Translations under genes and position numbers: made by a program
Shown here: positions 2,376 through 26,512 of the stretch, piece after piece
Numbering within the stretch: position 1 is the stretch's first letter
How the letters are laid out: every line of letters starts with the position of its first letter
The notes under the pieces: generated by a model
The model's database searches: none
What the model was told of the DNA's origin: nothing
The model's input: only the letters and a program-made list of their open reading frames with translations
Source: Candidatus Zhuqueibacterota bacterium
GTDB taxonomy: Bacteria; Zhuqueibacterota; Zhuqueibacteria; Residuimicrobiales; Krinioviventaceae
Reading direction: 5' to 3'
Length of the DNA stretch: 50,024 bases
NCBI GenBank assembly: GCA_016929295.1
Contig: JAFGJB010000028.1
Coordinates: 1-50,024 of the forward strand

Positions 2376-3014
2376 TCATTCTATTTCCAAAACCGTATTG
2401 ATCTCAAGCGTGGAAATGGCGCCTTGACGCACAACGCGCGCCGGCGATTTGGTGATATCGACGACCGTGGAGGGTATATTATCAACAGAAGGTCCGCCAT
2501 CGATGATCACCTCAAGCTGGTCGCCAAAAAAATTTTCCACTTGTGCAGCTGATGTCGCAGAGGGTTGGCCGCTGATATTGGCACTGGTGGATACAATGGG
2601 GAATCCGGTCTCCTTTATCAGTTCCAGGCAAAGGGCGGAATCCGGTATTCGAATGGCGATCGTTTTTGATTTGCCAAAGGCAAACTCTCTCAGACGCGAC
2701 GACGCTTCGAATACGATAGTCAATGGGCCCGGCCAAAAGTTTTCGATGAGTTTTTCCGCTGCCTCCGGAATGGAAATAACCAGCTCACTCACTTGCACGG
2801 TGTCGCCGGCGATCAGAATCATCGCCTTGCTCCGATCACGATTTTTGAGCTGGTAAATACGCTCCACGGCCGCACCATTTAAAGCATTGCAGCCGATGCC
2901 ATAGATTGTTTCGGTTGGATATCCGATGACGCCGCCTTTGCGCAGAATATCAGCCACGTACTCGATGTCAGAGTGTTCGGGGGCAACCGGATTAATTTCA
3001 ACAATATTGCTCAT
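2376..3014 (-). CDS. Threonylcarbamoyl-AMP synthase (TsaC/Sua5/YrdC family)
   Basis: This 212-residue protein belongs to the YrdC-domain family that makes threonylcarbamoyl-AMP from Thr, bicarbonate and ATP for the t6A37 modification of ANN-decoding tRNAs. Visible family marks are GGVIGYPTETIYGIGCNA near residues 28-45, the KNRDRSKAM segment that binds ATP/carbonate, and FPIVSTSANISGQP. It lacks the extra C-terminal Sua5 domain, so it is the short TsaC/YwlC-like form. I chose the ATG at 3014; an upstream in-frame TTG at 3023 would add three residues. The neighbours are functionally unrelated. Confidence 0.88.
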   Translation of the reverse strand: MSNIVEINPVAPEHSDIEYVADILRKGGVIGYPTETIYGIGCNALNGAAVERIYQLKNRDRSKAMILIAGDTVQVSELVISIPEAAEKLIENFWPGPLTIVFEASSRLREFAFGKSKTIAIRIPDSALCLELIKETGFPIVSTSANISGQPSATSAAQVENFFGDQLEVIIDGGPSVDNIPSTVVDITKSPARVVRQGAISTLEINTVLEIE

Positions 3015-3073
3015 AGCGACCAACTGGACATAAAAAGGAAAAGATATAAAAAAATCGCCAAAATCAAAGTCTT

Positions 3074-4951
3074 TTATCCATCATCCTTGAACTGCATGGT
3101 GTAGAGCTGTTTATAGAGCTGCGACCGCTTGAGCAAGTCGTCGTGTTTCCCGACATCAAGAATTTGCCCTTTCTCCATGACCACGATCTTGTCAGCGTGC
3201 AAAATAGTTGAAAGGCGATGGGCAATGACGAGCACCGTGCGATTCTGCATTAAATTATCAATTGCTTTTTGCACCAGTTTCTCCGATTGTGTGTCGAGCG
3301 CTGATGTGGCTTCATCCAGTATGAGGATGGGTTTGTTCTTCAGGATCGCACGAGCGATGGACAATCGTTGTCGTTGGCCGCCCGAAATGGTGACACCGCG
3401 TTCGCCAATAATGGTGTCCAGGCCTTTCTCCATCCTTTCGATGAACTCCCAGGCGTTGGCATGCCTGGCCGCCTCAATAATCTGCTCGTTGGTAAAGCCA
3501 TCGCCGCCATAGCTGATGTTCATTCGCACGGTATCGTTGAATAATATAGTCTCTTGTGTGACGATGCCAATCTGCTGCCGCAATGAAATCAATTGCATAT
3601 CGCGGATATCGCGGCCATCGATGTAGATGGCGCCGCTCACTACATCATAAAAACGGGGAATCAGATCCACCAGCGTCGATTTTCCGACGCCGCTGTGACC
3701 AACGAACGCCACCATCTCACCCTTATTTATGGTCAGATTGATATTATTCAGGACAGGCGTCTTGCCATCATAGGAAAAATCAACGTTTGCAAACACGATT
3801 GAATCGTCGAATCCTTCGATGGCCGCGGCGCCGTCTTTTTCATACACTTCGGTGGGTGTATCGAGATAATCAAATATGCGCTCGGCGGCCGCCAACCCGG
3901 ATTGCAGCACATTATTCAGGCCGGAAAGTTCCTTCATTGGCTGGAAAAGCAGAAAAAGAAAGACAATGAATTTCATGAAAACCTCGGCGGTCAGTCCATC
4001 GCCACGAAACACCATGTTGCCGCCATACCACAATAGAATGGAAAAAATGAAAACGCCTATGGTCTCGTTCAGCGGCGACGTCAGCTGATCAAGAAGCCTT
4101 GCCCGAAAGGCTTTTCTAAAATAGCCGGTGTTTATTTCTTCAAACTTGGCGGACTCTTTTTCCTCCGCCGTGAATGCCTTGACAATGCGGATGGAAGATA
4201 TTGATTCCTGAAATGCCGTGACCACCATGGATATTTGCTCGAGCACCCGACGGCTTTTTCGTCGCATGCTCTCACCGATCTTGACGATGATCAGACCGCT
4301 CAACGGGATGATGATGAACGTAATCAGTGTTAGCTTCCAACTCAAAATAATCAACACAGCGAGATAGCTGATGATCTGCATCGGCGCGAGGAATATTTTA
4401 ATAAAGCTGCTATCCAATACCGTTTGAATGGCACCGACATCATTAAAAACAACGGACGTGAGCTTTCCCGTATGTTTTTTGTGAAAAAAGGACAGTGGCA
4501 ATCGCAACAATTTTTGCTGCAGATCATCCCGCAAACGTATGACGATTTTAAGCTGGACATAATAAAAAAAGATGTGATGCAGATAGAGTGATATGTTTTT
4601 CAGAAGGAAAGCGAAGAAAATGACAAAACAAATGACTCTGAGCGTGGCGAACTTGCTGTCCCGAATGAGAACCGACTGAATGGCCGAATTCAGTCGGTCA
4701 TAGACTCTTTGCTTTTTCAGCTCATTGCTGAGCCACTCCTGGCGACTTTCACTCTGCCGGACATCGTCCGCCGCCCCGATGTTCATCTGGCGGTTTTCAC
4801 TTTCGGATTTGAACAGTTCGCGGATAAAATCGACAGACACCCAAACAGAGATCGAATTAAACAAGACAAAACAAACCGTAAAAAACAATCCTGCAAGCAC
4901 CGGTTTCCAATGCGGTCTGATATATGAGACAATGCGAAGATACAACTTCAT
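3074..4951 (-). CDS. MsbA-like ABC exporter (fused membrane and ATPase domains)
   Basis: The 625-residue half-transporter has an N-terminal six-helix exporter domain (about 1-350) and an ATPase domain (about 370-610). The ATPase carries Walker A GHSGVGKST (418-426), Q-loop TQET, signature SGGQRQ, Walker B PILILDEATSALD and the switch His in AHRLST. Such proteins act as dimers and flip lipids or drugs; lipid A-core is the likely cargo given the surrounding LPS genes. A charged insert of about 60 residues lies between the first two membrane helices, longer than in enteric MsbA. The ATG at 4951 is preferred because GAGAGG lies about 7 nt upstream; ATGs at 4957 and 4966 are possible. Confidence 0.85.
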   Translation of the reverse strand: MKLYLRIVSYIRPHWKPVLAGLFFTVCFVLFNSISVWVSVDFIRELFKSESENRQMNIGAADDVRQSESRQEWLSNELKKQRVYDRLNSAIQSVLIRDSKFATLRVICFVIFFAFLLKNISLYLHHIFFYYVQLKIVIRLRDDLQQKLLRLPLSFFHKKHTGKLTSVVFNDVGAIQTVLDSSFIKIFLAPMQIISYLAVLIILSWKLTLITFIIIPLSGLIIVKIGESMRRKSRRVLEQISMVVTAFQESISSIRIVKAFTAEEKESAKFEEINTGYFRKAFRARLLDQLTSPLNETIGVFIFSILLWYGGNMVFRGDGLTAEVFMKFIVFLFLLFQPMKELSGLNNVLQSGLAAAERIFDYLDTPTEVYEKDGAAAIEGFDDSIVFANVDFSYDGKTPVLNNINLTINKGEMVAFVGHSGVGKSTLVDLIPRFYDVVSGAIYIDGRDIRDMQLISLRQQIGIVTQETILFNDTVRMNISYGGDGFTNEQIIEAARHANAWEFIERMEKGLDTIIGERGVTISGGQRQRLSIARAILKNKPILILDEATSALDTQSEKLVQKAIDNLMQNRTVLVIAHRLSTILHADKIVVMEKGQILDVGKHDDLLKRSQLYKQLYTMQFKDDG

Positions 4952-4989
4952 CCACATACCTCTCATTTTAAAATAGAGTGGATTAGTGC

Positions 4990-5018
4990 TTGACTATTAT
5001 AGCCACAATCAATAAAAT
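4990..5018 (+). promoter_or_regulatory. Promoter of the plus-strand heptosyltransferase pair
   Basis: TTGACT (4990-4995) and TAAAAT (5013-5018) are 17 bp apart, a near-consensus sigma70 arrangement reading towards the GT9 genes. A minus-strand TATAAT at 5001-4996, inside this element, could serve the divergent msbA-like gene, but I see no matching -35. Confidence 0.6.
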
Positions 5019-5096
5019 CCGTCTGCTTCAAGCTGAAATATAGCGATAAATCGTTCAATTTCGCAAAGTTTAATTTCAATGCACAGGGAAGCTGTT

Positions 5097-6104
5097 TTGA
5101 GAATACGGCGGATTCTCATATCGCGCCTCAGATTCATGGGCGATGTCATATTGACGACGCCGGCGGTGCACGCGTTGAGACAAGCGTATCCCGACGCCAG
5201 AATCACCTATCTTGCCGAGGCGCCGTTCGCAGAGCTCTTGCTGCATCATCCGGATATTGATGATGTGCTGGTCGTGCAGAAAAACAACAGCAAAGCCATG
5301 CGACAGCTCTTCATGAAACTGCTGACCAGCCGGTTCGATATTGCCATCGACCTCTTTTGTAATCCGCGCTCGGCCATCCTGATCTGGTTCAGCGGTGCGC
5401 GCATTCGCATTGGCGGAGAATTTCGCGGCCGACGATTACTGTATAACAGACTCATACCATTTGAAAGCATCCAGCGAAACGCCGTGGACTTTCACCTCAA
5501 TTACTTGTCACCGTTGAACATTGTCTATAATAAAGTAGAACCATTCATCCAGATTACGGATGAAGAAAAAGAGTGGGCCCGCTCCTATTTAAGAAGGCAG
5601 AATTTTGATCTATCCCGACCTATTGTCGGGCTGCACCCGGGCGCCACATGGCCGGCCAAGCAATGGCTGCCGGAGCGCTTCGCCATGCTCGCCGACAGAA
5701 TCGTCCGCGACCTGAACGCCCAGGTGCTTTTCACCATGGGCCCCAATGAGGTGAGTTTGCTGCGATCTGTATTAAAACAGTGCTCATCTGATCTGAAAAT
5801 GCCCGAGCTTCTTTCCCTTCGCCAATTAGCCGCTGTTTTGCACTGCATGGCCGCATTCGTGAGCAATGACTGCGGTCCTCTGCACCTCGCTCCGGCTGTA
5901 GGCACAGCAGTCGTGGGCATATTTGGTCCTGGAACGCCGGAAATCTGGTTCCCCTACAGAGCAGATTTGGGACACCGCCTCGTTTTCCATACCCTTGATT
6001 GCAGTCGCTGCAACCGGGACTTTTGCGAAAAATTGGATTGTATGAAAGCAATCACTGTCGATGATGTTTTCAAGGCAGTGTCAGCAAGTCTCCAGAGAAA
6101 TTGA
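5097..6104 (+). CDS. Glycosyltransferase family 9 (heptosyltransferase-like)
   Basis: A GT9/GT-B-type transferase expected to add a heptose or similar sugar to the LPS inner core at the cytoplasmic face. The N-terminus carries the family motif RFMGDVILTTPAV. Further on, LHPGATWPAKQWL is the sugar-nucleotide loop and FVSNDCGPLHLAPAVGT the C-terminal donor-site motif. A TTG start at 5097 is chosen because AGGGA (5085-5089) lies 7 nt upstream and the conserved strand begins at once. An ATG at 5079 would add six residues and has no clear ribosome site. A short Cys-rich C-terminal stretch (LDCSRCNRDFCEKLDC) is seen in many GT9 proteins. The gene overlaps the next GT9 gene. Confidence 0.87.
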   Translation: MRIRRILISRLRFMGDVILTTPAVHALRQAYPDARITYLAEAPFAELLLHHPDIDDVLVVQKNNSKAMRQLFMKLLTSRFDIAIDLFCNPRSAILIWFSGARIRIGGEFRGRRLLYNRLIPFESIQRNAVDFHLNYLSPLNIVYNKVEPFIQITDEEKEWARSYLRRQNFDLSRPIVGLHPGATWPAKQWLPERFAMLADRIVRDLNAQVLFTMGPNEVSLLRSVLKQCSSDLKMPELLSLRQLAAVLHCMAAFVSNDCGPLHLAPAVGTAVVGIFGPGTPEIWFPYRADLGHRLVFHTLDCSRCNRDFCEKLDCMKAITVDDVFKAVSASLQRN

Positions 6105-14180: not shown

Positions 14181-15089
14181 TTATGCTTTTATGGACACAT
14201 AATCGCTCGGTGGCGGCGTCTTCCATCTGCGATGCATCCAAAACCAGTGATCCGGCCAGCGTCGAACTTTTTCTTCCAGTTTTGCAGCGTGACGCTGCGT
14301 GACTATTCGAACATTTTCCTCGCTCGTTCCGGACAAATCATCTGTCGGGATTTTTTCGAAAAATGCCTCGTACTTGCCATCCTGGCGTTGGATGCAGGTG
14401 GAAAAAATCAGCTGGGCGCCCGTTTTCAAAGCGAGCAGCGCGGGACCGGCTGCTGTCGCGGACGGGATATTGAAATAATCGACAAAGACACCATCGTTAT
14501 GGGCGTCCTGATCCGCGAGCAGGGCGACAAGCTTGTTCTGGCGCAGCGCCCGCAGGAACTCGCGAACGCCCATGCCGAGCGGCACCGTCTCGATGCCGGC
14601 GCTCTGGCGAAAGGCGTTTATCATCCTGTCCACCAGAATATTTCGTTGCCGCCGAGCGATAACCACCAGCGGGAATCCGGCAGCGACAATAGCGCATGCC
14701 ATCACCTCCCAGTTGCCAAAATGGCCGCTCATCAGCAGCGTTCCCCGGCCCGAACGACAGGAATCGCGCAATACATCCAGGTTATGCATCAATACGCGCT
14801 CGGCAATCTCTTCGGACGACCGAACCGGCGTTCGCAAAAACTCGAAAAAATTACGCCCGAACATGATGTATGTATTGCGCGCGATGGTGCGACGCTGTTT
14901 TTGCGTCAGCGCGGGCATAGCCTTGCCCAAATTGGCCAGGACAACGGCTCTGCGTATGGGTATGCAATGATAAACAACAGCGCCGACGAGCCGGCCGAGC
15001 CTGACCGCGGTCGCGGGAGCTAAAGATTGGACAATACGGGTGACAATCAAGAGGGCTGCATATTCGATTCTATTCTTCCATTCGTTCAT
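14181..15089 (-). CDS. Lipid A biosynthesis acyltransferase (LpxL/HtrB family)
   Basis: The 302-residue inner-membrane enzyme of the LpxL/LpxM family transfers a secondary acyl chain from acyl-ACP to the lipid A precursor. Visible marks are an N-terminal hydrophobic segment (YAALLIVTRIVQSLAPATAVRLG), the catalytic HFGNWE (HX4E motif), VIARRQRN, the LLADQDAH segment and TGAQLIF. It sits amid LPS-core transferases, consistent with late lipid A acylation. The ATG at 15089 is chosen; a GTG at 15092 is immediately upstream in frame. No strong ribosome site is seen. No second LpxL paralogue occurs in the window. Confidence 0.9.
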   Translation of the reverse strand: MNEWKNRIEYAALLIVTRIVQSLAPATAVRLGRLVGAVVYHCIPIRRAVVLANLGKAMPALTQKQRRTIARNTYIMFGRNFFEFLRTPVRSSEEIAERVLMHNLDVLRDSCRSGRGTLLMSGHFGNWEVMACAIVAAGFPLVVIARRQRNILVDRMINAFRQSAGIETVPLGMGVREFLRALRQNKLVALLADQDAHNDGVFVDYFNIPSATAAGPALLALKTGAQLIFSTCIQRQDGKYEAFFEKIPTDDLSGTSEENVRIVTQRHAAKLEEKVRRWPDHWFWMHRRWKTPPPSDYVSIKA

Positions 15090-15118
15090 CACACAAATTT
15101 ACATATTCGGGGATAATT

Positions 15119-16060
15119 TCACAATAAAAGATTATCCTCCTCCTCGTTTCGCTCTGTCTCTTCCGATTCCAGGCGCCAGCGTTCCTCTATCCTTCTATTA
15201 TGAACCTTGCGGAGAATAAACGCCGAGACGAGCAAAATGAAGATAGCGATCCACAGATAATCGTCAAGCTCGAACAGCCATACCCATTTTGATGTCTGTC
15301 GAATATGGTTCTGCCACTCGATCTCAAAATCGGCAAAAGCGCTGCCGGTTGCCGATATGAAACAGGCATCCAGGCTTTGGCCTTGTTTGAGCCCTTTGAT
15401 GATTTGTCTCAGGGCGTCGATGTCATAGGTTCTCAGCAAATAATCGACTGCTGAAAAACTCTGCTGATATGCCAGGTCAGCTTTGATTTGATGATAGTCC
15501 AAAACATAGTCGATCTCGGAGAGCGGGATGATCGAGCCGGTTGCCACCGCTTTGGCGAGCGCGGTCCCCGTCTTCCAGCGCTCCTGACGCGAATAAAAGA
15601 TAGCCAGGCCTTCGTCCAGCCATCGTGGCAACTTTGCCCCCAGATGCTGGTGAATGAGTAAATGAAAAAATTCATGAATCAGCGTCGTTTCAAAAGAATC
15701 ATCCGGATTCCACCGCGGAGATTTTATGACCATTGTATTGATCAACGGATTGGCAAAGGCGCCTGTCCACGCCGGCAGGCGACCGCGCAACGTTTCGTGA
15801 AATGACTTTCTGGTCGGCATGATGTAAACATGAAAAGAGTCGACGCCATTCAATTGCAGATCAAATGATATTTCCTCATATGCCATGAACAAAGGCGTGA
15901 AGGCGGCTCGCGCATAAGCAGAGTCCTGTGCGACAAAGTGAATGGTAAAAGGCTGGCGCGTGAGCATCTGGAATTGAAAATCGAGAGTTGCAGGAGGGCA
16001 AATGCTGTTCGCAGATCCTGAGAGGAGCACAACAATTGTGATGAGATATATACACCGCAT
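15119..16060 (-). CDS. Membrane-anchored gluzincin metallopeptidase (peptidase MA-like family)
   Basis: The 313-residue protein starts with a signal peptide (CIYLITIVVLLSGSANS). It carries a zinc site H129-E130-x2-H133 with a third ligand E150 in WLDEGLAIFYS, typical of the peptidase-MA/gluzincin superfamily. A single C-terminal helix (about 273-291, LWIAIFILLVSAFIL) and a charged acidic tail (ETERNEEEDNLLL) follow, so the catalytic domain should face the periplasm and the tail the cytoplasm. It follows the small four-Cys protein by 17 bp and precedes the LpxL-like gene by 29 bp. The substrate is unknown; the location suggests envelope protein or lipoprotein processing. Confidence 0.75.
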   Translation of the reverse strand: MRCIYLITIVVLLSGSANSICPPATLDFQFQMLTRQPFTIHFVAQDSAYARAAFTPLFMAYEEISFDLQLNGVDSFHVYIMPTRKSFHETLRGRLPAWTGAFANPLINTMVIKSPRWNPDDSFETTLIHEFFHLLIHQHLGAKLPRWLDEGLAIFYSRQERWKTGTALAKAVATGSIIPLSEIDYVLDYHQIKADLAYQQSFSAVDYLLRTYDIDALRQIIKGLKQGQSLDACFISATGSAFADFEIEWQNHIRQTSKWVWLFELDDYLWIAIFILLVSAFILRKVHNRRIEERWRLESEETERNEEEDNLLL

Positions 16061-16077: not shown

Positions 16078-16443
16078 CTACATGCGATACTCAATGCCCA
16101 AATAGTCGGCGATCAAGCCATAGAGTCGGCCAAACTGGTCATCGTATTTTCTTCGCACACATCCGGCATGTTCAGAGATGCACTCGTTGGTCATACATCG
16201 CTGCAGGGGTTCCTTGCAGCCCGTTTCCAATTTATATTGTTCAACAGATTTGAGACGTTTCAGCATATCTGACTGAGAAAAATGCTCACCCCTGATGCGG
16301 ATGCCGATCTCAAGCGCTTTTTCCCAGATAAAATCATAAATCGGCGCAATGTCGTTCACCTCCACGCTGTCGAGCAAGGCGCCGGGTGACTGTCCCATGA
16401 GCAGGTAGCGAAGAAATTGCAGTTGTGTGCCGGGGGAAATCAT
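16078..16443 (-). CDS. Small four-cysteine protein of unknown function
   Basis: I do not recognise this 121-residue protein. It has no signal or membrane segment. The N-terminal half is mostly helical with amphipathic character. The C-terminal half carries four cysteines at 76, 83, 88 and 95 (spacing C-x6-C-x4-C-x6-C), which could bind zinc or an Fe-S cluster. It is the fourth gene of the PATAN/GTPase-like module, starting 6 bp after its neighbour's stop, so it probably works with the receiver proteins. It is not an obvious Roadblock/LC7 protein. Confidence 0.7.
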   Translation of the reverse strand: MISPGTQLQFLRYLLMGQSPGALLDSVEVNDIAPIYDFIWEKALEIGIRIRGEHFSQSDMLKRLKSVEQYKLETGCKEPLQRCMTNECISEHAGCVRRKYDDQFGRLYGLIADYLGIEYRM

Positions 16444-16449
16444 CGTCCT

Positions 16450-16962
16450 TCATTCCAAATGATTGATGAGAGAATCGATCAATATTTTTAAAACATCTTT
16501 GGCATTTGTCTTGTCCGTTGAATCCCATAGCGAGAAATAGAGCTTGGAAGATAGAGAAAAGCCTGATTCGTAGACAGCGCGATCGATATTGATCGGCATA
16601 CCGCCAATATCGCCGACGACAATGCCATGGCTCTCGACGTGACGAGACAATGTATTGAGCAGCTGCTGGACGCTGGTAAAGCCGTTTCCTTCGAACCAGT
16701 CATAAACCAGCACATAGCCTAACATTTTAGGTGCGACAAGATCCCAGGCAAAATCCATGTACTGCTCTTTTTCGCCGATACCATAGAAGAAGAGCTGCAG
16801 CTCATCGGTAATCTTGCTGCGTCCAAAAACAGTGCTGTTATTGGTGATGACCACTTCGTTGCACAGATGGGTGATGAAGCGTTTTTGCAGCGGCAGGGAA
16901 GGGCCTGCGACGACGATTTCACCAATTCGGTGCGTATCTTTTTGTACAGTTAAGAGGGACAT
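16450..16962 (-). CDS. Eroded small-GTPase-like protein without nucleotide-binding motifs
   Basis: The 170-residue protein follows the strand pattern of COG2229/MglA-type small GTPases: IGEIVVAGPS, LQLFFYGIGE, LGYVLVYDW, GIVVGDIGG, KLYFSLWDST and a terminal helix. The diagnostic residues are missing. The G1 loop reads GPSLPLQK (20-27) instead of GxxxxGK[ST], the DxxG of G3 is absent, and the G4 NKxD is replaced by GDIG. It is probably a nucleotide-blind scaffold or binding partner. The ATG at 16962 starts 1 bp after the upstream stop; a TTG at 16974 is also in frame. The homology is my reading of the pattern, not a search. Confidence 0.6.
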   Translation of the reverse strand: MSLLTVQKDTHRIGEIVVAGPSLPLQKRFITHLCNEVVITNNSTVFGRSKITDELQLFFYGIGEKEQYMDFAWDLVAPKMLGYVLVYDWFEGNGFTSVQQLLNTLSRHVESHGIVVGDIGGMPINIDRAVYESGFSLSSKLYFSLWDSTDKTNAKDVLKILIDSLINHLE

Positions 16963-16963
16963 T

Positions 16964-18172
16964 TCATCTGCCAAGTTTTTGTCGGATGAGCAACAGTTCT
17001 GCTTTTGTCAGTTGAATCTTGTTGGCGATCCGACTTTTTGCCACCATTGCGCCATCAACACTTTTTTCATTGTTATTCATTGATAATTGCAGGTCCGAAT
17101 TCTTTTCTGACTTGAGATTTCTCTGGAAAATTGAAAAAATATGCGAGTATGGGCTTTTTGCATTCCGATGAGCGCGGTCCAGAACAGGACGAAACGTCGC
17201 CGCCTTCTGGTTATCGTTTGGCTGACGGGCATCGGTCTTGATCAAAAGCCCTTTTTCCAATAACGATTTGATAACTTTTAATCCATCAAAATCGTCAAAA
17301 TCGCTCACATCAATGGCTTGCAGAATATTTTTCGGCTTGTGAAATTGACTGAGCATGGCGCGCTCCGCGTATGATAAAGCCTGGGCATCCTCGGTGCTCA
17401 CGGTTACGAGACAGGTGTGCAGAGATGGCAGCTCTCCGGTGACGCGGCGCCATTGGTCAATGACTTTAGCGCCTTCGCGAAAAAGAGAGTCGTTATCATC
17501 CTTGAGCGGGCCGGACATGCCGATCTCCTGAAACGTGACATTAAAAGTGCCTTCGATCCAGGTCAGCATGTGCAAATAGGCGCGTTCCACAGAGTCATAG
17601 TCTTCGACGACGGCATTGACAATTTTGCCTTTATTCACATAGATTTGACCATCCTTGTCGCCACGGTTCAGATGAATGATGCCCGACTTTTTTCCCAATT
17701 CCATTGTTTGAATCAGATCAATGAGATTCATTTCCCTCAAGCTCCCCCAAAATCCTCGCTCGACAGCCTTGGGCAACAGAGTTGTCGGTTTGAATTCCTG
17801 CATCAGGTTGATGACTCGTGCGGCAACTTCTTCCGGATAATATGGTTTGGGGACAAAGTCATCAATTTTCATCTCGAGCAGTTCGACTCGTTTTTTATAA
17901 TCCGTTTCCACTATTGTCAATAAAAGTGGAATTCGATGAGTTGAGTACTGATTTTTGACCTGGAGAAAAAAATCTTCGCTCTCTTTCCCCTCTCTCTTGA
18001 TATCAAAAATGATCAGATCGGGCCGATCAGTCAGGCAAAACTGAAAAGCCTCCTGAGCATTTTCAAGCAGAGTGACGTCATAAGCGCTGTCTTTCAAGAG
18101 CTGCGCCAATCTCTCGACATCGGCCGCTGCTTTGTCATAGATCAAAATTCGATGTACCTGCTGTTCATTCAC
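16964..18172 (-). CDS. Receiver-PATAN (DUF4388) signalling protein
   Basis: The 402-residue protein starts with a response-regulator receiver (about 7-122). Phosphoacceptor D57 is present, as are T86 and the switch Lys K109, but there is a single acidic pocket residue (D13). A PATAN/DUF4388 domain (about 141-215) follows, with FWGSLREMNLIDLIQTMELGKKSGIIHL and GQIYVNKGKIVNAVVEDY. A winged-helix-like stretch and a low-complexity C-terminus of about 80 residues complete it. PATAN is an interaction module seen in bacterial signalling with two-component and GTPase partners. Its GTG start overlaps the upstream gene's stop by 4 bp (GTGA), implying translational coupling. No histidine kinase is in the window. 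Confidence 0.85.
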   Translation of the reverse strand: MNEQQVHRILIYDKAAADVERLAQLLKDSAYDVTLLENAQEAFQFCLTDRPDLIIFDIKREGKESEDFFLQVKNQYSTHRIPLLLTIVETDYKKRVELLEMKIDDFVPKPYYPEEVAARVINLMQEFKPTTLLPKAVERGFWGSLREMNLIDLIQTMELGKKSGIIHLNRGDKDGQIYVNKGKIVNAVVEDYDSVERAYLHMLTWIEGTFNVTFQEIGMSGPLKDDNDSLFREGAKVIDQWRRVTGELPSLHTCLVTVSTEDAQALSYAERAMLSQFHKPKNILQAIDVSDFDDFDGLKVIKSLLEKGLLIKTDARQPNDNQKAATFRPVLDRAHRNAKSPYSHIFSIFQRNLKSEKNSDLQLSMNNNEKSVDGAMVAKSRIANKIQLTKAELLLIRQKLGR

Positions 18173-19926
18173 CTGGCAATAATTCTCTCGGAATTCTTTT
18201 CCATAGCAAAGTCATGTTGTCCGTGCAGTTCATTCAACAATGTGAACAAGACACGACGACAGCTATTCTCGTCAATACCGGATATAAATCGCAAGAGGTG
18301 ATTTTCATCCAGGCCCAGATTCTCTCGGACGTGCTGTGACTCGAAATCGCTCTTCCCCCTCTGTTTGGCGATGACGAGAACGGGGCCGGTCAATTGCTGG
18401 CATAATGATTTAAAAAGATAACGATGATAGCTCCAGCTCACCTGATCGAGATCGATTAAAAAGATATAGCCAAGGGCTTTTTCTTTAAAATATTCAAGTA
18501 TCGTTGAAAATTGCTCACTAGGATTCAAGCTCAGGACGTGGAGTTGATCGCCGCCGCGAAAATTCACCGTGCCGTGATAAATGGTCTTTGCGGCAGGCAT
18601 ATTTATTTCCTCGGGCGCGCTGGCCGTGAGCATGGAGATAAAATCCTTATTGTTCTGATTTTCGGTGCTCAACAGGATGACATGTGTTTTATCGTCCGTC
18701 GCGGCGATATTGTCCATTTCTTTTCGAGAACCGGCAAGGACGTCACCATTTTTTCCCCGATAGCTTTTTTGCATGCCGCTCAAATGAGGCTCCCTGTCAT
18801 CTTCCGGCAGCTCGGAACGGTACGCCTTGTGGGGAAAATTGTCGGGGGCAATTTTATCGATCTCGCGATCCGGATCAAAAGGCAGCTGATCGCTTTGTTC
18901 AACGAATGAGTCTTGATCAAATTCGGCAAATTCCTCGTCGGCTTCGCTTTTGAATTGCACCGGTTTTTCAACCGAAAAATCTTTCAATACATGTAAAAAG
19001 CCAAGCTTGTACAGCTTGACAATTCGTTTCAAAGTGACTATTTCATTTTCATGGCTGTCATCAATTATTCTTCCAAGAGATCGTTCACCATCAAAAAGTT
19101 TCATAAACTCTTTGAGCTCCAGGTTCATGTCTTTCTGGGCAATGATCTTTTTGAAATTGGCGGTGGTGATCACAACGGCATCCAGTGAAGGCAGTTGTTT
19201 TAATAATTCATTTCTCAAATCCATTCGTTTGGCTCCTTGCAGTAAAAGCCCCATATTGCTTATCGTAAATTCGTCCTCAACCTGAACTTCAGCGAATACC
19301 ATGGAAAATCGTCCGCGATTCCAGTAGATCATTTTATAAAAGGCATCTTCGGCGCGCAATGATTCTGTCGCAGCGCTCAGGATGCGTCCGCGATTGAAGA
19401 CAATTTGCCCGCTGTGGCCATTTTCGTTATTCAGGCTCAAGATGCCGGTCTTTTTTTCCGATCCCAAAACCTCAATCAGATCAATGACGGGCAAATCTTC
19501 CAGCCGACCGTTGAATTTATTGTCGCTCTCAACTTGCATGTCCCGGCAGGACTCTAGCCGATTCTGCACCATATTGACACGAGCGACAATTTCGCTCACA
19601 TGTACTGGTTTGACGATGAAATCTTTTGCGCCCAGCTTCAGACTTTTGACCCGATTCCAGACATCGCTTTTTATTGAGAGAAATATGACGTGGGTCAAAT
19701 CATTGTTGGAATGTCGCTGTATTTCCTTGAGAAGTTGATAGCCATCAATACTGGGTGCGCTCAGTTCCGCGAGGACAATGTCGAAGGGATGGGTGTTGAG
19801 AAGGGCCAGCGCTTCGTCGTTACTCATAGCGGTGGCAACCATATATGACACTGCCTGGAAGTTCATCTCTAGAACTTTGAGATTTTTGCGATCACCATCG
19901 ACCAGGAGTATTCGTCGCTTATTCAT
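18169..19926 (-). CDS. Pseudo-receiver-PATAN-GTPase-like tripartite signalling protein
   Basis: From the ATG at 19926 the product has 585 residues. It has a receiver-like domain (1-125), a PATAN domain (about 138-213: FNGRLEDLPVIDLIEVLG, GQIVFNRGRILSAA), the typical helical LFDGERSLGRIIDD segment (about 278-312), an acidic linker (about 320-405), and a C-terminal domain with the COG2229-like GTPase strand pattern (about 413-570). The phosphoacceptor is Glu (E54 in DIVLAEL) while K106 is retained, so it cannot be phosphorylated normally and may mimic the active state. The C-terminal domain has lost GxxxxGK[ST], DxxG and NKxD. The upstream in-frame codons to 19995 overlap the terminator and are rejected. 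It heads the module; only about 46 bp separates it from that terminator. Confidence 0.8.
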   Translation of the reverse strand: MNKRRILLVDGDRKNLKVLEMNFQAVSYMVATAMSNDEALALLNTHPFDIVLAELSAPSIDGYQLLKEIQRHSNNDLTHVIFLSIKSDVWNRVKSLKLGAKDFIVKPVHVSEIVARVNMVQNRLESCRDMQVESDNKFNGRLEDLPVIDLIEVLGSEKKTGILSLNNENGHSGQIVFNRGRILSAATESLRAEDAFYKMIYWNRGRFSMVFAEVQVEDEFTISNMGLLLQGAKRMDLRNELLKQLPSLDAVVITTANFKKIIAQKDMNLELKEFMKLFDGERSLGRIIDDSHENEIVTLKRIVKLYKLGFLHVLKDFSVEKPVQFKSEADEEFAEFDQDSFVEQSDQLPFDPDREIDKIAPDNFPHKAYRSELPEDDREPHLSGMQKSYRGKNGDVLAGSRKEMDNIAATDDKTHVILLSTENQNNKDFISMLTASAPEEINMPAAKTIYHGTVNFRGGDQLHVLSLNPSEQFSTILEYFKEKALGYIFLIDLDQVSWSYHRYLFKSLCQQLTGPVLVIAKQRGKSDFESQHVRENLGLDENHLLRFISGIDENSCRRVLFTLLNELHGQHDFAMEKNSERIIAR

Positions 19927-20026: not shown

Positions 20027-20701
20027 TTATAGAGAAGAAATGGACTTGAAAATGCACTCATATCTATTTTCGGATGCCGTTGCTTTTTTCTGCTTTTCTT
20101 TGAAATAGATCACTTTATCGCCAAGGTCTTCGATCTCCATTAGTGGAATCTGGGACACACCTGCTCGACTAAAAACAGCGGTTTTTGATTTGCCGGGCAA
20201 TTGCAGCTCCCAGCCGTCAATATTGTCGCCGTCTTCGTGCCACAAATAAAGGAGCAGTTTATCGCACGCCTTGTCCGTCATCGCGCGAATGGCAATGCTG
20301 TCTTTCGGCAAGGATCTGGGATCGAAATCTGCCAGTTTGCTATCCTTTCCCGCTCCTGTGCCGTTTGCCGTGAACAGAACCTTCGTCTTATAAGGGAGCG
20401 CCGTCGGTTTTTTGTCGGTTTTCAACGGTTCGCAAACGACCAGGCCATACTTTGTTTCTTTATCGCGAATTTTTTTTGCCAGGTCCAGAGCCTTGTTTGT
20501 CACCGGTTTGTTCACTTGCTCATTCAAGTGCTTATAGATGCCTTCCAGCTCCTGGTATTTTTTGCGGCATCTTGCACATTGCTGCAGATGAACTCGCGCT
20601 TTCCGTTTTTCACCCTCGCTCAGGTTCACGTCCAGGCACAACAGTTCTATGAGGTTATCATACGGACAACCTTCCAGCGTCGTTTCTTCTTTTTTCATCA
20701 T
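20027..20701 (-). CDS. Zinc-finger anti-sigma-factor-like protein
   Basis: The 224-residue soluble protein carries a ZAS (anti-sigma zinc finger) signature near its N-terminus: H38-x3-C42-x2-C45, with C12 or C22 as the probable fourth ligand. The surrounding helices (LSEGEKRKARVHLQQCARCRKK) are typical of zf-HC2 anti-sigma factors. No membrane segment follows, so it would be a cytosolic type. The middle and C-terminal parts (about 95-224) are mixed strand-rich and unrecognised. The gene follows the 361-residue gene by 103 bp and ends at a strong terminator, so the two probably form a unit. A partner sigma factor is inferred, not shown. Confidence 0.72.
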   Translation of the reverse strand: MMKKEETTLEGCPYDNLIELLCLDVNLSEGEKRKARVHLQQCARCRKKYQELEGIYKHLNEQVNKPVTNKALDLAKKIRDKETKYGLVVCEPLKTDKKPTALPYKTKVLFTANGTGAGKDSKLADFDPRSLPKDSIAIRAMTDKACDKLLLYLWHEDGDNIDGWELQLPGKSKTAVFSRAGVSQIPLMEIEDLGDKVIYFKEKQKKATASENRYECIFKSISSL

Positions 20702-20804: not shown

Positions 20805-21890
20805 TTACATTAATTCTTTCAAATGTTTCCGAAATTCCTTTTTTGCCACTTTGGCAAGATACTCGAACACCGACCGCTCATTCTGTCGATATTCCCTCTG
20901 CGTTAAATCAGGCAGGTAGTGTCTCAGGTTACGAAAATAGGAAGAATTATCTTTCTTTTGAATGAGGTCATTCAATACGTCACGTAAGGCTTTGGTATAA
21001 ATATCTGCACGTTCCATGTCCAGCTTCTCTGAACGCAAGTATTGCGAATTTATTTTCTTCCTGACTTTTTCCATCACCACATCGATATAACCTTCGATCT
21101 CTTTTGTCTCCAGTTCATCGAGCGGCGTTGGCATCATTTCATCTGCGGATAATTTGTCCTTGACAGCATTAAATTTTACTCGGCGTATGAGTTTGACGAT
21201 GGTTTCGATGGGTAAAAAGTTTTGGTATTCATCAAATTCGTGCACGGTTTTCAGCAGTTTCCGAATCGAACTCGACACTGAATCGGAGGGGCTGTATATA
21301 TCGATGAAACGGGTATGCAAGAGATCTTCCGGAATGGGAGGTTGTTTCCGTCTAAGATAGTCGGCTATCAGCTCGGCATCAACCGGCTCGTCTTTTTCCA
21401 GCTCCAGTCCGTTTTTATAAAAGACAAATTCCTTGCCCAGGTCGACAAAGCTTTGCAGCTTTTCGGATGTCCGGATGGCCACTTTGATATTTCTGACGAT
21501 CTTGGCGCCCTCGGGATCGCGCTCCCGAAAAATGCGTGACAGCTCTTGCTTTGTCTTGCGAACGACCAATCGCCGCGTCAGGATCAAGACATCTGCATTG
21601 GTGATGTTTTCAAACTCTTCATACTTTGGCTCATAATATTTCACCAGCTGCGGAAATTTCCCGTCCCCATCGCCGCTGAAAAGCTCGGCAATACAATCGA
21701 CGGCGAGATCTGCCAACTCGACATCCGTGTCCACGCGTTCGCCGGAAATTCTCTTGCCGATGATCTCCTGATATTTCAAATAACCGAGAGATATCTTTTG
21801 AGTGAGATTTATGAATTCAACCAACTGAGCCTGGCAATAAGTCCCTGCGCATATATCTCGAACCAATTGTGCTAAACCATTCTTCTCCAT
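20805..21890 (-). CDS. Uncharacterised helical protein, possible sigma-like partner
   Basis: The 361-residue soluble protein is largely helical and very charged. I do not recognise a family. The N-terminal half contains LAVDCIAELFSGDGDGKFPQLVKYY, reminiscent of the core helix of sigma region 2 but too weak to claim. The C-terminus (about 325-361, TQREYRQNERSVFEYLAKVAKKEFRKHL) is basic and amphipathic. Pairing with a downstream ZAS protein is the main reason to consider a divergent sigma-type regulator. The ATG at 21890 is preferred; codons further upstream to 21923 give no conserved extension. An alternative is a nucleic-acid-binding or regulatory protein unrelated to sigma factors. Confidence 0.6.
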   Translation of the reverse strand: MEKNGLAQLVRDICAGTYCQAQLVEFINLTQKISLGYLKYQEIIGKRISGERVDTDVELADLAVDCIAELFSGDGDGKFPQLVKYYEPKYEEFENITNADVLILTRRLVVRKTKQELSRIFRERDPEGAKIVRNIKVAIRTSEKLQSFVDLGKEFVFYKNGLELEKDEPVDAELIADYLRRKQPPIPEDLLHTRFIDIYSPSDSVSSSIRKLLKTVHEFDEYQNFLPIETIVKLIRRVKFNAVKDKLSADEMMPTPLDELETKEIEGYIDVVMEKVRKKINSQYLRSEKLDMERADIYTKALRDVLNDLIQKKDNSSYFRNLRHYLPDLTQREYRQNERSVFEYLAKVAKKEFRKHLKELM

Positions 21891-22169
21891 ATTTCCCGTT
21901 CGACTTGATAATCCAGCTGTCAACTATCCCGCGTATCATTACTTTGAAGGTTCCTCGCCACATTCACCATTGACAGCTATTTTTGCGGGCCATCTGAAAT
22001 GCATTCCACTCAAGGAACTGGGCATTTCTGATATCTGGCTTCAAGCAAAATACATACCATTTTCTCAGAATGAAAATTGAGCTAACTCCTTAATAATCGT
22101 AGGGAAAACCGGAGGGTATTGCTAGAGTGTAACAAAAAGTATGTGCATCATCGAAACAGTGTATCGCCC
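21891..22169. other. Intergenic stretch without a recognised gene
   Basis: The gap between the 361-residue gene and the NtrC-type regulator holds no reading frame with coding character, no RNA gene and no repeat that I can see. The only firm element is the terminator at its lower-strand 5' side (22170-22204). The promoter of the 361-residue gene should lie here, but I cannot pick it. Confidence 0.5.
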
Positions 22170-22228: not shown

Positions 22229-23614
22229 TTAGCTGCTTTTAACCATCGGAAGCCCGTATTTTTTTGCCTTGCGATAGATGGTTGCTCTGCCGATGCCTAA
22301 CTGTTTCGCGGTTTTTGAAATATTTCCTTCACATTCCAGGAGAGCTTGACGCAATGCCTGTTCTTCCAATTTCTCAATCCAGCTCGCGAGTGTATTGTCA
22401 GATTCGTAAATTCTTTTTTCACCCAGAGAACGAACGGCCGGCGGCAAGTCCTTTGCGCTGATCTCTGGCCCATTTGCCAAAACAACGGCCCTCTCCATGG
22501 CGTTTTCCAACTCGCGCACATTGCCGGGCCAACTATATGCCATCAGCAGCTCCAAAGAATCCGAAGATATGCCTTTGATCTCCTTCCCCTCTTGCTCATT
22601 GTATTTTTGCAGAAAATGAGCCGCTAACAGGGGTATATCATCTTTGCGCTCGCGCAAGGATGGCAATTTTATCGGAAACACGGAGATTCGATAGTATAAA
22701 TCCTCTCGGAATCCACCATCTTTCATCTCCTCTTCCAGATCTTTATTCGTCGCCGAGATGACGCGAACGTTGACTTTAATCAATTCACTGCCGCCGACGC
22801 GCTCAAATTCTCTTTCCTGCAAAATGCGCAATATCTTGGATTGCGTCGCCGGGGTCATGAGGCCTATTTCATCGAGAAATATGGTGCCGCCATCGGCCTG
22901 CTCAAACTTGCCAATTCGACGACCGGATGCGCCGGTGAACGAGCCCTTCTCATGGCCGAACAATTCGCTCTCGAGCAAAGACTCCGGAAGAGCGGAGCAG
23001 TTCACCGCAACAAATGGCTTGTTGGCGCGGGCCTTGGAGTGATAGTGAATGGCGCGTGCAATTAATTCCTTACCCGTGCCGCTTTCGCCCTGAATTAACA
23101 CCGTAACATTGCTGTCCACCACCTTCTCGACGGCCTTGAAAGCATCCTGCATGACACCACTTTGACCGACAATATTCGTAAATGTGTATTTGTTTTTCAG
23201 CTCGGAGCGAAGCTCACTCACCTCTCTTTGCAGAGAACTGTTGATCAAAGCGTTCTGAACCGTGACTAACAATCTGTCGCGCGCAAAAGGTTTGGTCAAG
23301 AAATCATATGCGCCCAGCTTCATCGAATTCACCGCTCGCTCGATGGTGCCATGCGCCGTCATCATGACGACGGGAATCCGCGGATCTTCTTCCTTGATTC
23401 GCTTCAAAGTCTCTATGCCGTCTATACCCGGCATCTGAATGTCAATCAAACACAGATCAGGTATGTCCTCCTTGATCAACTTGAGGCAGGCTTCTCCGCT
23501 CAGCGCCGTGTTCATATCATATTTTCGCTCTTTGCGCAGACTCGCTTCTATCATTTTGCATATGTTCTTGTCATCATCGACAATCAATATTTGTGGTCTT
23601 TTTTTCTCTTCCAA
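22229..23614 (-). CDS. NtrC-family sigma54-dependent response regulator
   Basis: The 461-residue protein has a receiver domain (about 8-120, acidic pocket DDD, phosphoacceptor D in LCLIDIQMP, switch K in DFLTKP). A sigma54-activating AAA+ domain (about 145-375) follows, with Walker A GESGTGKE, GSFTGA (variant of GAFTGA, contacts sigma54), LDEIG and an R-finger region. A Fis-type helix-turn-helix (about 420-456, NISKTAKQLGIGRATIYRKAKKYGL) ends it. A TTG start with GGAGA about 7 nt upstream is used. No histidine kinase is adjacent, so the partner is unknown. A terminator follows. Confidence 0.94.
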   Translation of the reverse strand: MEEKKRPQILIVDDDKNICKMIEASLRKERKYDMNTALSGEACLKLIKEDIPDLCLIDIQMPGIDGIETLKRIKEEDPRIPVVMMTAHGTIERAVNSMKLGAYDFLTKPFARDRLLVTVQNALINSSLQREVSELRSELKNKYTFTNIVGQSGVMQDAFKAVEKVVDSNVTVLIQGESGTGKELIARAIHYHSKARANKPFVAVNCSALPESLLESELFGHEKGSFTGASGRRIGKFEQADGGTIFLDEIGLMTPATQSKILRILQEREFERVGGSELIKVNVRVISATNKDLEEEMKDGGFREDLYYRISVFPIKLPSLRERKDDIPLLAAHFLQKYNEQEGKEIKGISSDSLELLMAYSWPGNVRELENAMERAVVLANGPEISAKDLPPAVRSLGEKRIYESDNTLASWIEKLEEQALRQALLECEGNISKTAKQLGIGRATIYRKAKKYGLPMVKSS

Positions 23615-23729: not shown

Positions 23730-24746
23730 TTATTTTAAAATCTCAAAAAGAGACAGAAATTTTTCTTCATCTGCGGGTTTTAATTCTATTTGGAGCCTGA
23801 ACCAGTGCTCGTCAATGAGATCGAGCGGAAGCTTCACCCAGTCTTTGTCCGTTGTCACGACAATGTCGGCGGACAATTCCTTGACTTTCCTTTGCAGCTT
23901 TAGAATATCGTTTTGTCCAAAACGATAATGATCTTTGAACGCTGTAAATCCCAAAAGGTTCACACCCAATTCCTGCAAAGTGCGTCGAAAGCCTTCCGGA
24001 TGTGCCAGGCCACAAAAAGCGTACGCTCTCTTTCCCCGAACGCTCCGCAGGATCGAGGCGCCCTTTTTATTGACAATATCTCTGACAGTATAATCGGCAA
24101 AAAAAAGCGGCATCGTCACTTTCGCCAATGTTGCGGGCAGTTGTTGGCCGGCGCCGCTGCAGAGAATCGCCTGCGCTCTCCGGATATTTCTTTTTGGCTC
24201 TCTGAGCGGCCCGGCAGGCAGACAAAATCCGTTGCCAAAGGGCTTGCGCAGCCGAAAAGTTAACAGATCAATGTCGCGCTTGATTCTTCGGTGTTGAAAG
24301 GCATCATCGAGAATGATGACGTCCGGCTTGTAGTCGAGGATGGCCTTTTCTGCTGCCCGCAGCCGATTCGAATCGACGACGACGACGGCGTTTCGACACA
24401 TCTGCGCGAGTAAAAACGGCTCATCGCCGGAATCTTCAACCGTACTTTTAATACTGCGGCCGTCGGCAACGACGACCGTATGCCGCGAGCGACGCCCGTA
24501 TCCGCGACTGATTATCGCAACTCTTTTATTCAGCGATAGTAATTGATTGGCAAGATAGTGCACAACGGGAGTCTTGCCGGTGCCGCCGACGGTGATGTTT
24601 CCCACACTGATGACAAAGGCATCGACGGCATAGCTTTTGAGGCAACCGAAATCGTATAATATGTTGCGAACCGTCACAACGATGCAGTATATGAGAGAGA
24701 GCGGCCATAAGAGCAGCACCGGCCATCTATGTTCGAAAAACCTCAT
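23730..24746 (-). CDS. lpxK: Tetraacyldisaccharide 4'-kinase
   Basis: The 338-residue inner-membrane kinase phosphorylates the 4' position of tetraacyldisaccharide-1-P to give lipid IVA. An N-terminal hydrophobic helix (MRFFEHRWPVLLLWPLSLIY) anchors it, and the P-loop GGTGKT is at 54-59. SRGYGRR, DGFLL-type GDEPFLLA and IILDDAFQHRRI are the usual LpxK marks. The ATG at 24746 is preceded by AGGAGG three bases upstream and overlaps the DUF374 gene by 20 bp, so the genes are coupled. The open frame to 24809 is inside the neighbour and rejected. It is the last gene of oxidoreductase-lpxB-DUF374-lpxK. Confidence 0.93.
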   Translation of the reverse strand: MRFFEHRWPVLLLWPLSLIYCIVVTVRNILYDFGCLKSYAVDAFVISVGNITVGGTGKTPVVHYLANQLLSLNKRVAIISRGYGRRSRHTVVVADGRSIKSTVEDSGDEPFLLAQMCRNAVVVVDSNRLRAAEKAILDYKPDVIILDDAFQHRRIKRDIDLLTFRLRKPFGNGFCLPAGPLREPKRNIRRAQAILCSGAGQQLPATLAKVTMPLFFADYTVRDIVNKKGASILRSVRGKRAYAFCGLAHPEGFRRTLQELGVNLLGFTAFKDHYRFGQNDILKLQRKVKELSADIVVTTDKDWVKLPLDLIDEHWFRLQIELKPADEEKFLSLFEILK

Positions 24747-25389
24747 CGGCCTCCTTCTCCAATGCCAGCAATTGCTGCTCGACAAATAGTCGCTGCTCTT
24801 CAAGATCACCGGGCGAGAGCGCGCGGGGAATTTTTATCGGCTCGCCATACAGCACGGTGCATTTTGAAAAAGGCCACCACAATGTAAATCGATCCCAGGA
24901 ATTCAGAACGATCGGTTTGCGGGCGGCAAAGGTGATGGGGAGCAGATTCGCGCCGGACCGCTGCGCTAAAAGGATGGCTCCCATCTTTAACGTTTGTCGC
25001 GGCCCGGTCGGACCATCAGGCAATATCGTGCAGTGCTCGCCATTTTTCAACTGCCGCAGCATATCGCGAAACGCCCTCTGTCCGCCTCGAGTGCTCGACC
25101 CTCGTACGGTTCGATAACCAAGTCGCAAAATCGTTTGAGCGATAATCTCCCCGTCACCATGCTCACTGACCATCGCAGAAATATTTTGCCTGCGGTGCAT
25201 AAAAGTGGGCAACAGCATTTTCCCATGCCACACAATATAGATGAGCCCGCAACTTTCCGCCAGCGCCTGGCGCCAATAATTCACATGCCGGACGCGTATC
25301 CGCGCCGTCTTGCCCAATCCCAACAATAAAAGCCAGGCGAGTTTGATGGCCAAATAATGAAGCAGACGTTTTCGAGTGTCCCTTTGCAT
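24727..25389 (-). CDS. DUF374 lysophospholipid-acyltransferase-like protein
   Basis: The 220-residue protein of the DUF374 family has an N-terminal hydrophobic segment (LLHYLAIKLAWLLLLGLG), IVWHGKMLLP (an HG variant of the acyltransferase H-x4-D motif), VRGSSTRGG, ILPDGPTGPRQ and ANLLPITFAA. DUF374 genes are commonly found in lpx operons and are thought to be lipid A or Kdo-lipid-related acyltransferases; the reaction here is not established. It starts 4 bp after lpxB and overlaps lpxK. Confidence 0.85.
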   Translation of the reverse strand: MQRDTRKRLLHYLAIKLAWLLLLGLGKTARIRVRHVNYWRQALAESCGLIYIVWHGKMLLPTFMHRRQNISAMVSEHGDGEIIAQTILRLGYRTVRGSSTRGGQRAFRDMLRQLKNGEHCTILPDGPTGPRQTLKMGAILLAQRSGANLLPITFAARKPIVLNSWDRFTLWWPFSKCTVLYGEPIKIPRALSPGDLEEQRLFVEQQLLALEKEADEVFRT

Positions 25390-25393
25390 TGAA

Positions 25394-26512
25394 TCAAATC
25401 ATCTCTATGATGAGCCGAGCCGTTTTTTCAGCGGCGCCGCTTTCGCCCAGCCGGTGCTTTACGCCGGCCATCTGAGCCATTTTTTCCCGACGATACTCGA
25501 CATCAAACAGACACCTTTCGAGTTCGGCTGCTATCGATTCAGGGTGAATGGCATCCTGAATGAACTCTTTGGCAATTTCATCTCTGCCGACAATATTGAC
25601 CAGGCCAATGCGAGGAATTTTGATCAGTTTTTTGCCCAGAAAATATGAAAGAGGAGATACGCGATAGAGCAGAACAAATGGAAGCTGAAAACAGGCGGCT
25701 TCAAGCGTGGCCGTGCCGGATGCAACAATAGCAGCGGTTGCATAGGACATTAACTCATAGGTGGCGCCCTTGATGATTTTGATATCCGACAGGGCGACGT
25801 ATTCCTCGATAAGGTCGCGTTGAATGGTGTCCGCCAGGCCGAGGGCAACTTGCAGGTTGGGAAATTTTTGCCGCAGCCGCTGCACCGCGCTCAACATGGA
25901 GGGCAAAAGGTGGGCAATCTCCTGCTTTCGGCTCCCCGGCAGTAATGCTAAAACAGATTTGCCCGCACAAAGGCCGAATTTTTCACAGAACGCTTCGCGT
26001 GACAAATGAATCTTGAGGCCATCGGTCAAAGGGTGGCCGACAAAATGGGCGTCAATGCCAAAAGCGCTGAAAAACTCAACTTCAAAGTCAAAAATGACTG
26101 CCATGCGATCGACGAACGAAGCCATTTTTTTTGCCCGACTCTGATGCCACGCCCATACCTGCGGCGCGATGAAATAAAACACTTTGAAACCCAGCTTTTT
26201 TAATTTTTTCCCCAGCCGCAAATTGAGACCGGGATAGTCGATCAGAACGACAACGGCCGGCTCTCTCTCCACCGCGGCTCTGATGACATCTTTGTAGACC
26301 TTGATAAAAAATGGCAAATGTCTAAAGATTTCGGTAAAGCCGATGTAGGCCAGATCTTGAACATGATAGAGCAACTCCATGTAGCGGGCCATTTGATCCC
26401 CGCCAATGCCGAACAACTCTACATCTGTCTCCCCCTTCAGAGCGCCCGCCAGTCTTGCGCCATGCAGATCTCCGGAAGCTTCTCCGGCAATGATCATTAT
26501 TTTCTTCACCAT
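25394..26512 (-). CDS. lpxB: Lipid-A-disaccharide synthase
   Basis: The 372-residue GT19 enzyme joins UDP-2,3-diacyl-glucosamine and lipid X to form the tetraacyl disaccharide. The signature AGEASGD is at 8-14, GIGGDQM follows, and further on come YFIAPQVWAWHQSR, VGHPL, LLPGSRKQE and ASGTATLEAACFQLPFVLLYRVSPL, all diagnostic of LpxB. Length is standard (about 380). It lies 4 bp from both neighbours, inside the lipid A operon. Confidence 0.96.
   Translation of the reverse strand: MVKKIMIIAGEASGDLHGARLAGALKGETDVELFGIGGDQMARYMELLYHVQDLAYIGFTEIFRHLPFFIKVYKDVIRAAVEREPAVVVLIDYPGLNLRLGKKLKKLGFKVFYFIAPQVWAWHQSRAKKMASFVDRMAVIFDFEVEFFSAFGIDAHFVGHPLTDGLKIHLSREAFCEKFGLCAGKSVLALLPGSRKQEIAHLLPSMLSAVQRLRQKFPNLQVALGLADTIQRDLIEEYVALSDIKIIKGATYELMSYATAAIVASGTATLEAACFQLPFVLLYRVSPLSYFLGKKLIKIPRIGLVNIVGRDEIAKEFIQDAIHPESIAAELERCLFDVEYRREKMAQMAGVKHRLGESGAAEKTARLIIEMI

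Follow-up and report, generated by a model that had tools for sequence, protein, structure and literature searches.

A conserved PATAN module with degenerate receiver and small-GTPase-like domains in an uncultured bacterial group

The window analysed here, 50,024 nucleotides from the genome of an uncultured bacterium (KSB1/Calditrichota), harbours a conserved module of four genes, P1 to P4, in which receiver and PATAN (DUF4388) domains are combined with small-GTPase-like (G-like) domains. The receiver of P1 lacks its phospho-acceptor aspartate and both G-like domains lack the nucleotide-binding motifs. We consider it about an even chance that P1–P4 constitute a 'locked' pseudo-receiver/pseudo-GTPase scaffold derived from a signalling module of receiver-PATAN (REC-PATAN) and small-GTPase type. 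This double pseudo-switch form of a known PATAN/MglA-type module is new. The searchable literature holds no characterisation of the module, which an earlier note on this DNA, made from the sequence alone, had rightly called uncharacterised.

Translation of the open reading frames (ORFs) of the window places P1–P4 on the minus strand between 16078 and 19926 (Table 1). P1 and P2 overlap by 4 bp (GTGA), while P2 and P3 are separated by 1 bp and P3 and P4 by 6 bp. The earlier note had described the same four packed genes with this spacing and domain make-up, namely receiver and PATAN domains in P1 and P2 (both detected by Pfam), G-like domains in P3 and at the P1 C-terminus (P1-C), and four cysteines in P4. 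Its observation of the module is confirmed, and its interpretation as a whole is partly supported. P1 and P2 are the only PATAN proteins encoded in the genome, a 4.34 Mb draft that is 96% complete. Upstream of P1 lies a hairpin that, with its T run, resembles a terminator; P1–P4 therefore probably begin their own transcription unit, apart from the upstream gene.

The Pfam matches to DUF4388 are highly significant for both P1 (2.4e-16) and P2 (1.2e-16), as are the matches to Response_reg (Table 1 for P1; 1.4e-10 for P2). The start site of P1 agrees with its homologues, which share the N-terminus MxxRxILxVD. At the phospho-acceptor position P1 carries Glu54 instead of Asp, and among 50 aligned P1 proteins this position is Glu in 44, Asp in five and Ala in one, with the acidic residues and the Lys conserved. 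P1 is thus an aspartate-less receiver, with the receiver fold kept and the phospho-Asp replaced. A replacement of Asp by Glu at this site can yield phosphate-independent activity, although often not on its own (PMC4395418). The full set of residues for phosphorylation (Asp, Thr/Ser, Lys and an acidic pair) is found in neither P1 nor P2. The two proteins are paralogues across the REC-PATAN region (BLASTP E value 1e-24).

According to its structural model P3 has the small-GTPase fold of Ras and Rab. The AlphaFold2 model, based on the window protein and 22 relatives, has a predicted local distance difference test (pLDDT) score of 81.7 and a predicted template modelling score (pTM) of 0.81. The top Foldseek matches are all Rab GTPases (E ~1e-8, template modelling (TM) score 0.61–0.74), and VIA gives Z scores of ~16 to Rab and Ras with a root mean square deviation of ~3.3 over ~155 residues. 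From sequence alone the P3 family profile matches Rab3 with an E value of 3.6e-4, whereas a PDB search with the single P3 sequence reaches no more than E 0.08 (Sec4). The family profile of P1-C matches SRP receptor beta (SRPRB), Rab12 and SAR1 at ~2e-4 to 4e-4, and the P1-C and P3 families are homologous to each other (hhalign probability 99%, E 2.6e-18). The earlier note had made its proposal depend on both domains being GTPase folds, and the Ras/Rab fold of the P3 model and the homology of P1-C to P3 bear this out.

The motifs for nucleotide binding are missing from both domains, as the earlier note had also read them. The G1 P-loop GxxxxGK[ST] is absent in the window, where P1-C reads LLSTENQNNKDF and P3 reads AGPSLPLQKRF. 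In P3 the G3 (DxxG/TPGQ) and G4 ([NT]KxD) motifs are absent as well, with YGIGEK and VVGDIGG at these positions in an alignment made by eye, and P1-C likewise lacks DxxG/TPGQ and [NT]KxD. Other prokaryotic MglA groups retain G3 motifs, for example GTPGQ and TVPGQ (PMC4316618). We infer from the missing motifs that neither P1-C nor P3 would bind GTP. Neither P3 nor P4 matches a Pfam or NCBIfam family. Given the homology of P1-C with P3 and the paralogy of P1 and P2, P2 and P3 together look like a split copy of the P1 architecture.

Homologue searches covered the phylum and detect P3 relatives in 54 of 62 genomes of the same class, plus four from other classes, and P4 relatives in 53 of the 62. 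Gene order was read from 40 regions and 46 loci of a named genome collection, with the relatives located by a scan anchored on the neighbouring gene P6, to which modules lacking P6 are invisible. Across the class the order NtrC–P6–zf-like–P1–P2–P3–(P4)–Peptidase_MA is strongly kept. The P1–P2–P3 order also extends to another class of the phylum, where the core P1–P2–P3–P4 stands alone, without these neighbours; conserved order outside this genome was the second point on which the earlier note had staked its proposal. Compared with the nearest relative, from which it is diverged at synonymous sites (dS ~1), the window gives omega values of 0.092 for P1, 0.080 for P2, 0.054 for P3 and 0.150 for P4. 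The low omega values together with the conserved gene order indicate that P1–P4 are very likely functional genes under strong purifying selection.

The five P1 proteins with Asp at the phospho-acceptor position belong without exception to the other class (families f15, f17 and f20), and at the P-loop position of the G-like domain the same five carry GxxxSGK in four cases and GxxxSGR in one. A branch with support 99/99 separates them from the remaining P1 proteins, and the tree needs one change. Families f6 and f7, which combine Glu with a degraded GxxxxG[RW], look intermediate. The P1 of a sixth genome of the other class (L102) likewise combines Asp with GTVGSGKSE; it was left out of the tree and the alignment, as its ORF appears broken. 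At 2838–5177 of this locus P1 and P2 are apparently fused, with an internal repeat GLSEFVRTLCGLSEFVRTLCGL (GLSEFVRTLC) and a truncated G domain, and the fusion is probably an assembly or deletion artefact. The related class retains both Asp and a motif resembling a P-loop, which allows a direct comparison of a switchable with a locked form of one module. This contrast makes it testable which roles PATAN and MglA-like domains play when switching is impossible, and whether PATAN proteins have any function beyond type IV pili.

In the same class the module lies within a conserved block of genes for lipid A and lipopolysaccharide (LPS). In almost every member of the class the module is followed by the Peptidase_MA_2 metalloprotease. 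Downstream of the protease lie heptosyltransferase-type genes and an acyltransferase (LpxL), whose gene comes immediately after it in at least 22 genomes; LpxB, DUF374 and LpxK lie upstream of the NtrC gene, and this set precedes NtrC in many genomes. The position of the module within this block suggests a role in the cell envelope.

The near-complete loss of the parts that handle phosphate and GTP, combined with the selection on these genes, suggests that the products form a permanent structural complex and do not act as an on/off switch. The earlier note had already proposed a scaffold complex in place of a GTP switch, and of the explanations considered here this one is the best supported. 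In the locked scaffold that we favour, P1 (REC-PATAN-G) and the split pair of P2 (REC-PATAN) and P3 (G) would represent two copies of one architecture, which would pair PATAN-to-PATAN and G-to-G into a permanently assembled complex. Both ancestral switches, by phosphorylation and by nucleotide, would have disappeared along the lineage towards this class. Such a scaffold may then position or hold partners, most likely the envelope (lipid A/LPS) factors encoded around the module, rather than drive type IV pili, while P4 would be an accessory helical subunit, capable of metal or redox chemistry. An analogous retention of an assembly interface without nucleotide turnover is known from septin pseudoGTPases (PMC10731463). 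A more far-reaching version, which we propose only tentatively, is that a 'double pseudo' complex exists throughout the class, descended from a REC-PATAN/small-GTPase system of a type that is connected with motility and polarity in other bacteria; it would have lost both switches together and found a new use as constitutive scaffold in outer-membrane/LPS biogenesis, in some hosts without a type IV pilus.

Several points weigh against the locked scaffold. The losses of the phospho-site and the P-loop amount to one phylogenetic contrast and not to independent repeats, and a single evolutionary contrast provides an association, not a cause. A degenerate P-loop is no proof that nucleotide binding is gone. 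The LPS context is absent in the other class, where the neighbours are SpoIID (Pfam) and tig-clpP-clpX-lon-like genes (named by eye), and partly absent in families f10 and f11, and it may be plain synteny. Moreover, P4 leaves the module in one clade (f9–f11). Finally, P2 of the window might be phosphorylated, as judged from its residues: Asp57 is kept in this protein and its closest kin, and the window P2 also has T86 and K109.

These three residues favour a conditional switch, in which a distant histidine kinase would phosphorylate the P2 receiver and thereby change the conformation of the pseudo-GTPase assembly, with P1 as the locked partner. About 30 histidine kinase ATPase domains (HATPase_c) encoded elsewhere in the genome are consistent with this explanation. 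However, the contig of the window holds no HATPase_c domain except that of GyrB, 34 of 46 relatives have Glu at the phospho position of P2, and the window P2 has an incomplete acidic pair (D13, K14; one acidic residue). We therefore regard such a switch as unlikely.

A second explanation concerns a canonical MglA (GPGLGGKTT, TIPGQ, NKRD), which is encoded with an adjacent Roadblock (MglB) gene on another contig (L150 7252–8348, corresponding to G000:C191:20252–21348). This Roadblock gene is the only one of the genome, and none is found within four genes of the module. The statement of the earlier note that no kinase, MglB or Roadblock gene is near therefore holds locally, but the canonical pair on the other contig has to be set beside it. 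The pseudo-G domains could act as a decoy or regulator that binds MglB or MglA effectors and modulates this pair. In other bacteria PATAN genes do occur near mglA/mglB (mglA Groups 1 and 5, PMC4316618), a co-occurrence that the earlier note had correctly stated, and MglA is present in 76 of 79 relatives. Yet almost every genome of the phylum encodes MglA, which is not true of the module, and the module is not near the MglA–MglB pair. In addition, hhalign finds no match between the P3 family and the single MglA sequence of the genome, so that direct descent of P3 from MglA is unsupported. Taken together, a decoy role appears less probable than a conditional switch.

Somewhat more doubtful again is the binding of nucleotide or another small ligand by P3 and P1-C through a remodelled pocket. 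The fold is intact, and some relatives retain GxxxxG[KR] at the P-loop position; on the other hand no G1, G3 or G4 residue is left in the window, and the conserved residues of P3 (E15, Y60, G61, K79, L81, G82 and W89) differ from the G motifs.

The classical role of PATAN proteins is the control of the type IV pilus motor PilB, as in Synechocystis, where PATAN regulators act on PilB1 (PMC7690835), and most relatives of the window genome do possess ATPases of the T2SSE family (PilB/PilT type). In the window genome, a draft at the completeness given above, no T2SSE match was detected, while 14 of 14 control genomes were positive, and none was found in three further module-bearing genomes (G001, G004 and G043). 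The genes of the module nevertheless stay under purifying selection. A type IV pilus target is thus very improbable; for the window genome we reject it, and it is largely refuted. The MglB–MglA pair, too, sits in a genome without a detectable PilB/PilT/T2SSE ATPase. That P1–P4 are a decaying remnant of a former switch, as the loss of motifs in the receiver and G-like domains might suggest, is hardly credible and is refuted by omega values of 0.05–0.15 and by four tightly spaced ORFs that are intact over the class.

To our knowledge, prokaryotic pseudo-GTPases have been little described. With the PATAN response regulators PatA, PixG, PixE and LsiR (DUF4388, PF14332) P1 and P2 share the combination of receiver and PATAN domains, above the Pfam cut-off, but P1 differs by Glu at the phospho site and by its C-terminal G-like domain, and the genome lacks a PilB homologue. 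P3 resembles the MglA-family small GTPases, whose genes sometimes neighbour PATAN genes (PMC4316618), in its G-domain fold; unlike them it has no P-loop, TPGQ/DxxG or [NT]KxD motif, no MglB is encoded nearby, and the window holds no Pfam GTPase match. The actinobacterial conservons (CvnA-D) are also multi-gene signalling units that combine a small-GTPase-fold protein with proteins of unknown function. In contrast to these, the module has no CvnA-type kinase or CvnB Roadblock protein, contains REC-PATAN proteins instead, and its G domain is motif-less. As in aspartate-less receivers (PMC4395418), Asp is replaced by Glu in P1 with an acidic residue and Lys kept, but here the receiver is joined to PATAN as well as a pseudo-G domain and is fixed over a class. 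The pseudoGTPases septin and p190RhoGAP likewise use the G fold as an interaction surface after GTP handling was lost; this is an analogy only, as these proteins are eukaryotic, have no receiver or PATAN domain and are not homologous modules.

P4 is an accessory, optional member of the module. The earlier note had counted it in a set of four, and in the window it does adjoin P3, but it is not obligate: in the f9–f11 clade it lies outside the module and is the immediate neighbour of the RNase Y gene in all five genomes examined (L188, L189, L190, L191 and L192), and of 34 relatives only 28 keep the four cysteines, which the other 6 have lost. The former place of P4 in this clade is occupied by cystathionine synthase/lyase-type genes, named from the sequence by eye. 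In the same clade, pyridoxal phosphate-dependent genes of cystathionine beta-synthase and gamma-lyase type were observed between P3 and the metalloprotease (L118 15624–18163, L120, L131 and L137). The P4 model is all-helical (pLDDT 84.8). A search of the PDB by sequence gives no match, Foldseek nothing below 1, and the best VIA Z score of 5.1 is uninformative for a helical protein. An early idea that P4 is of the TRAPP/V4R or YlbF/YmcA type received no support from Pfam. The cysteines form a CX6CX4CX6C motif (C76, C83, C88 and C95) that would be suited to binding a metal, as in Fe-S or Zn proteins, and in the f9–f11 clade P4 may work with RNase Y as a partner linked to metal or redox chemistry. 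The Fe-S Ric proteins of Bacillus are reported to be linked to RNA turnover (PMC6751060), and by this analogy a comparable link of P4 may be taken as a lead only.

Table 1. Features of the module and its surroundings in the window (aa, amino acids).
Feature	Position	Strand	Evidence
Lipid A biosynthesis acyltransferase (LpxL type)	14181–15092	-	Pfam 1.1e-53, conserved position
Membrane-anchored Peptidase_MA_2 metalloprotease	15119–16060	-	Pfam 2.6e-20
P4: predicted all-helical four-Cys protein, 121 aa	16078–16443	-	AlphaFold2 model, Cys conservation
P3: predicted free-standing G-like (small-GTPase-fold) protein, no nucleotide motifs, 170 aa	16450–16962	-	AlphaFold2, Foldseek, VIA, profile
P2: receiver–PATAN, 402 aa, GTG start	16964–18172	-	ORF, Pfam
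P2 PATAN/DUF4388 domain	17447–17746	-	Pfam
P1: pseudo-receiver–PATAN (DUF4388)–linker–G-like domain, 585 aa	18169–19926	-	ORF, Pfam, profile homology
P1 C-terminal G-like domain; LLSTENQNNKDF at P-loop position	18202–18621	-	Profile homology to P3
P1 PATAN/DUF4388 domain	19216–19509	-	Pfam
P1 receiver domain; Glu54 at phospho-acceptor position (codon 19767–19765)	19576–19911	-	Response_reg 1.1e-21
Terminator-like hairpin and T run, directly upstream of P1	19980–20003	-	Sequence
zf-HC2/anti-sigma-like protein (weak match)	20027–20701	-	Conserved neighbour, Pfam
P6: 372 aa, strongly conserved, nearly invariant stretch KTKQELSRIFRERDPEGAK	20805–21923	-	Conserved neighbour
NtrC-type sigma-54 activator	22229–23614	-	Conserved neighbour
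LpxK (23730–24809), DUF374 (24727–25389), LpxB (25394–26512)	23730–26512	-	Pfam, conserved position

The earlier note had not mentioned the lipid A/LPS block, nor the NtrC gene, the two genes of unknown function and the metalloprotease that belong to this setting. P6 matches no Pfam or NCBIfam family. It usually lies beside the zf-HC2/anti-sigma-like gene and the NtrC gene, and paralogous NtrC–P6–zf sets without PATAN are present in the same phylum.

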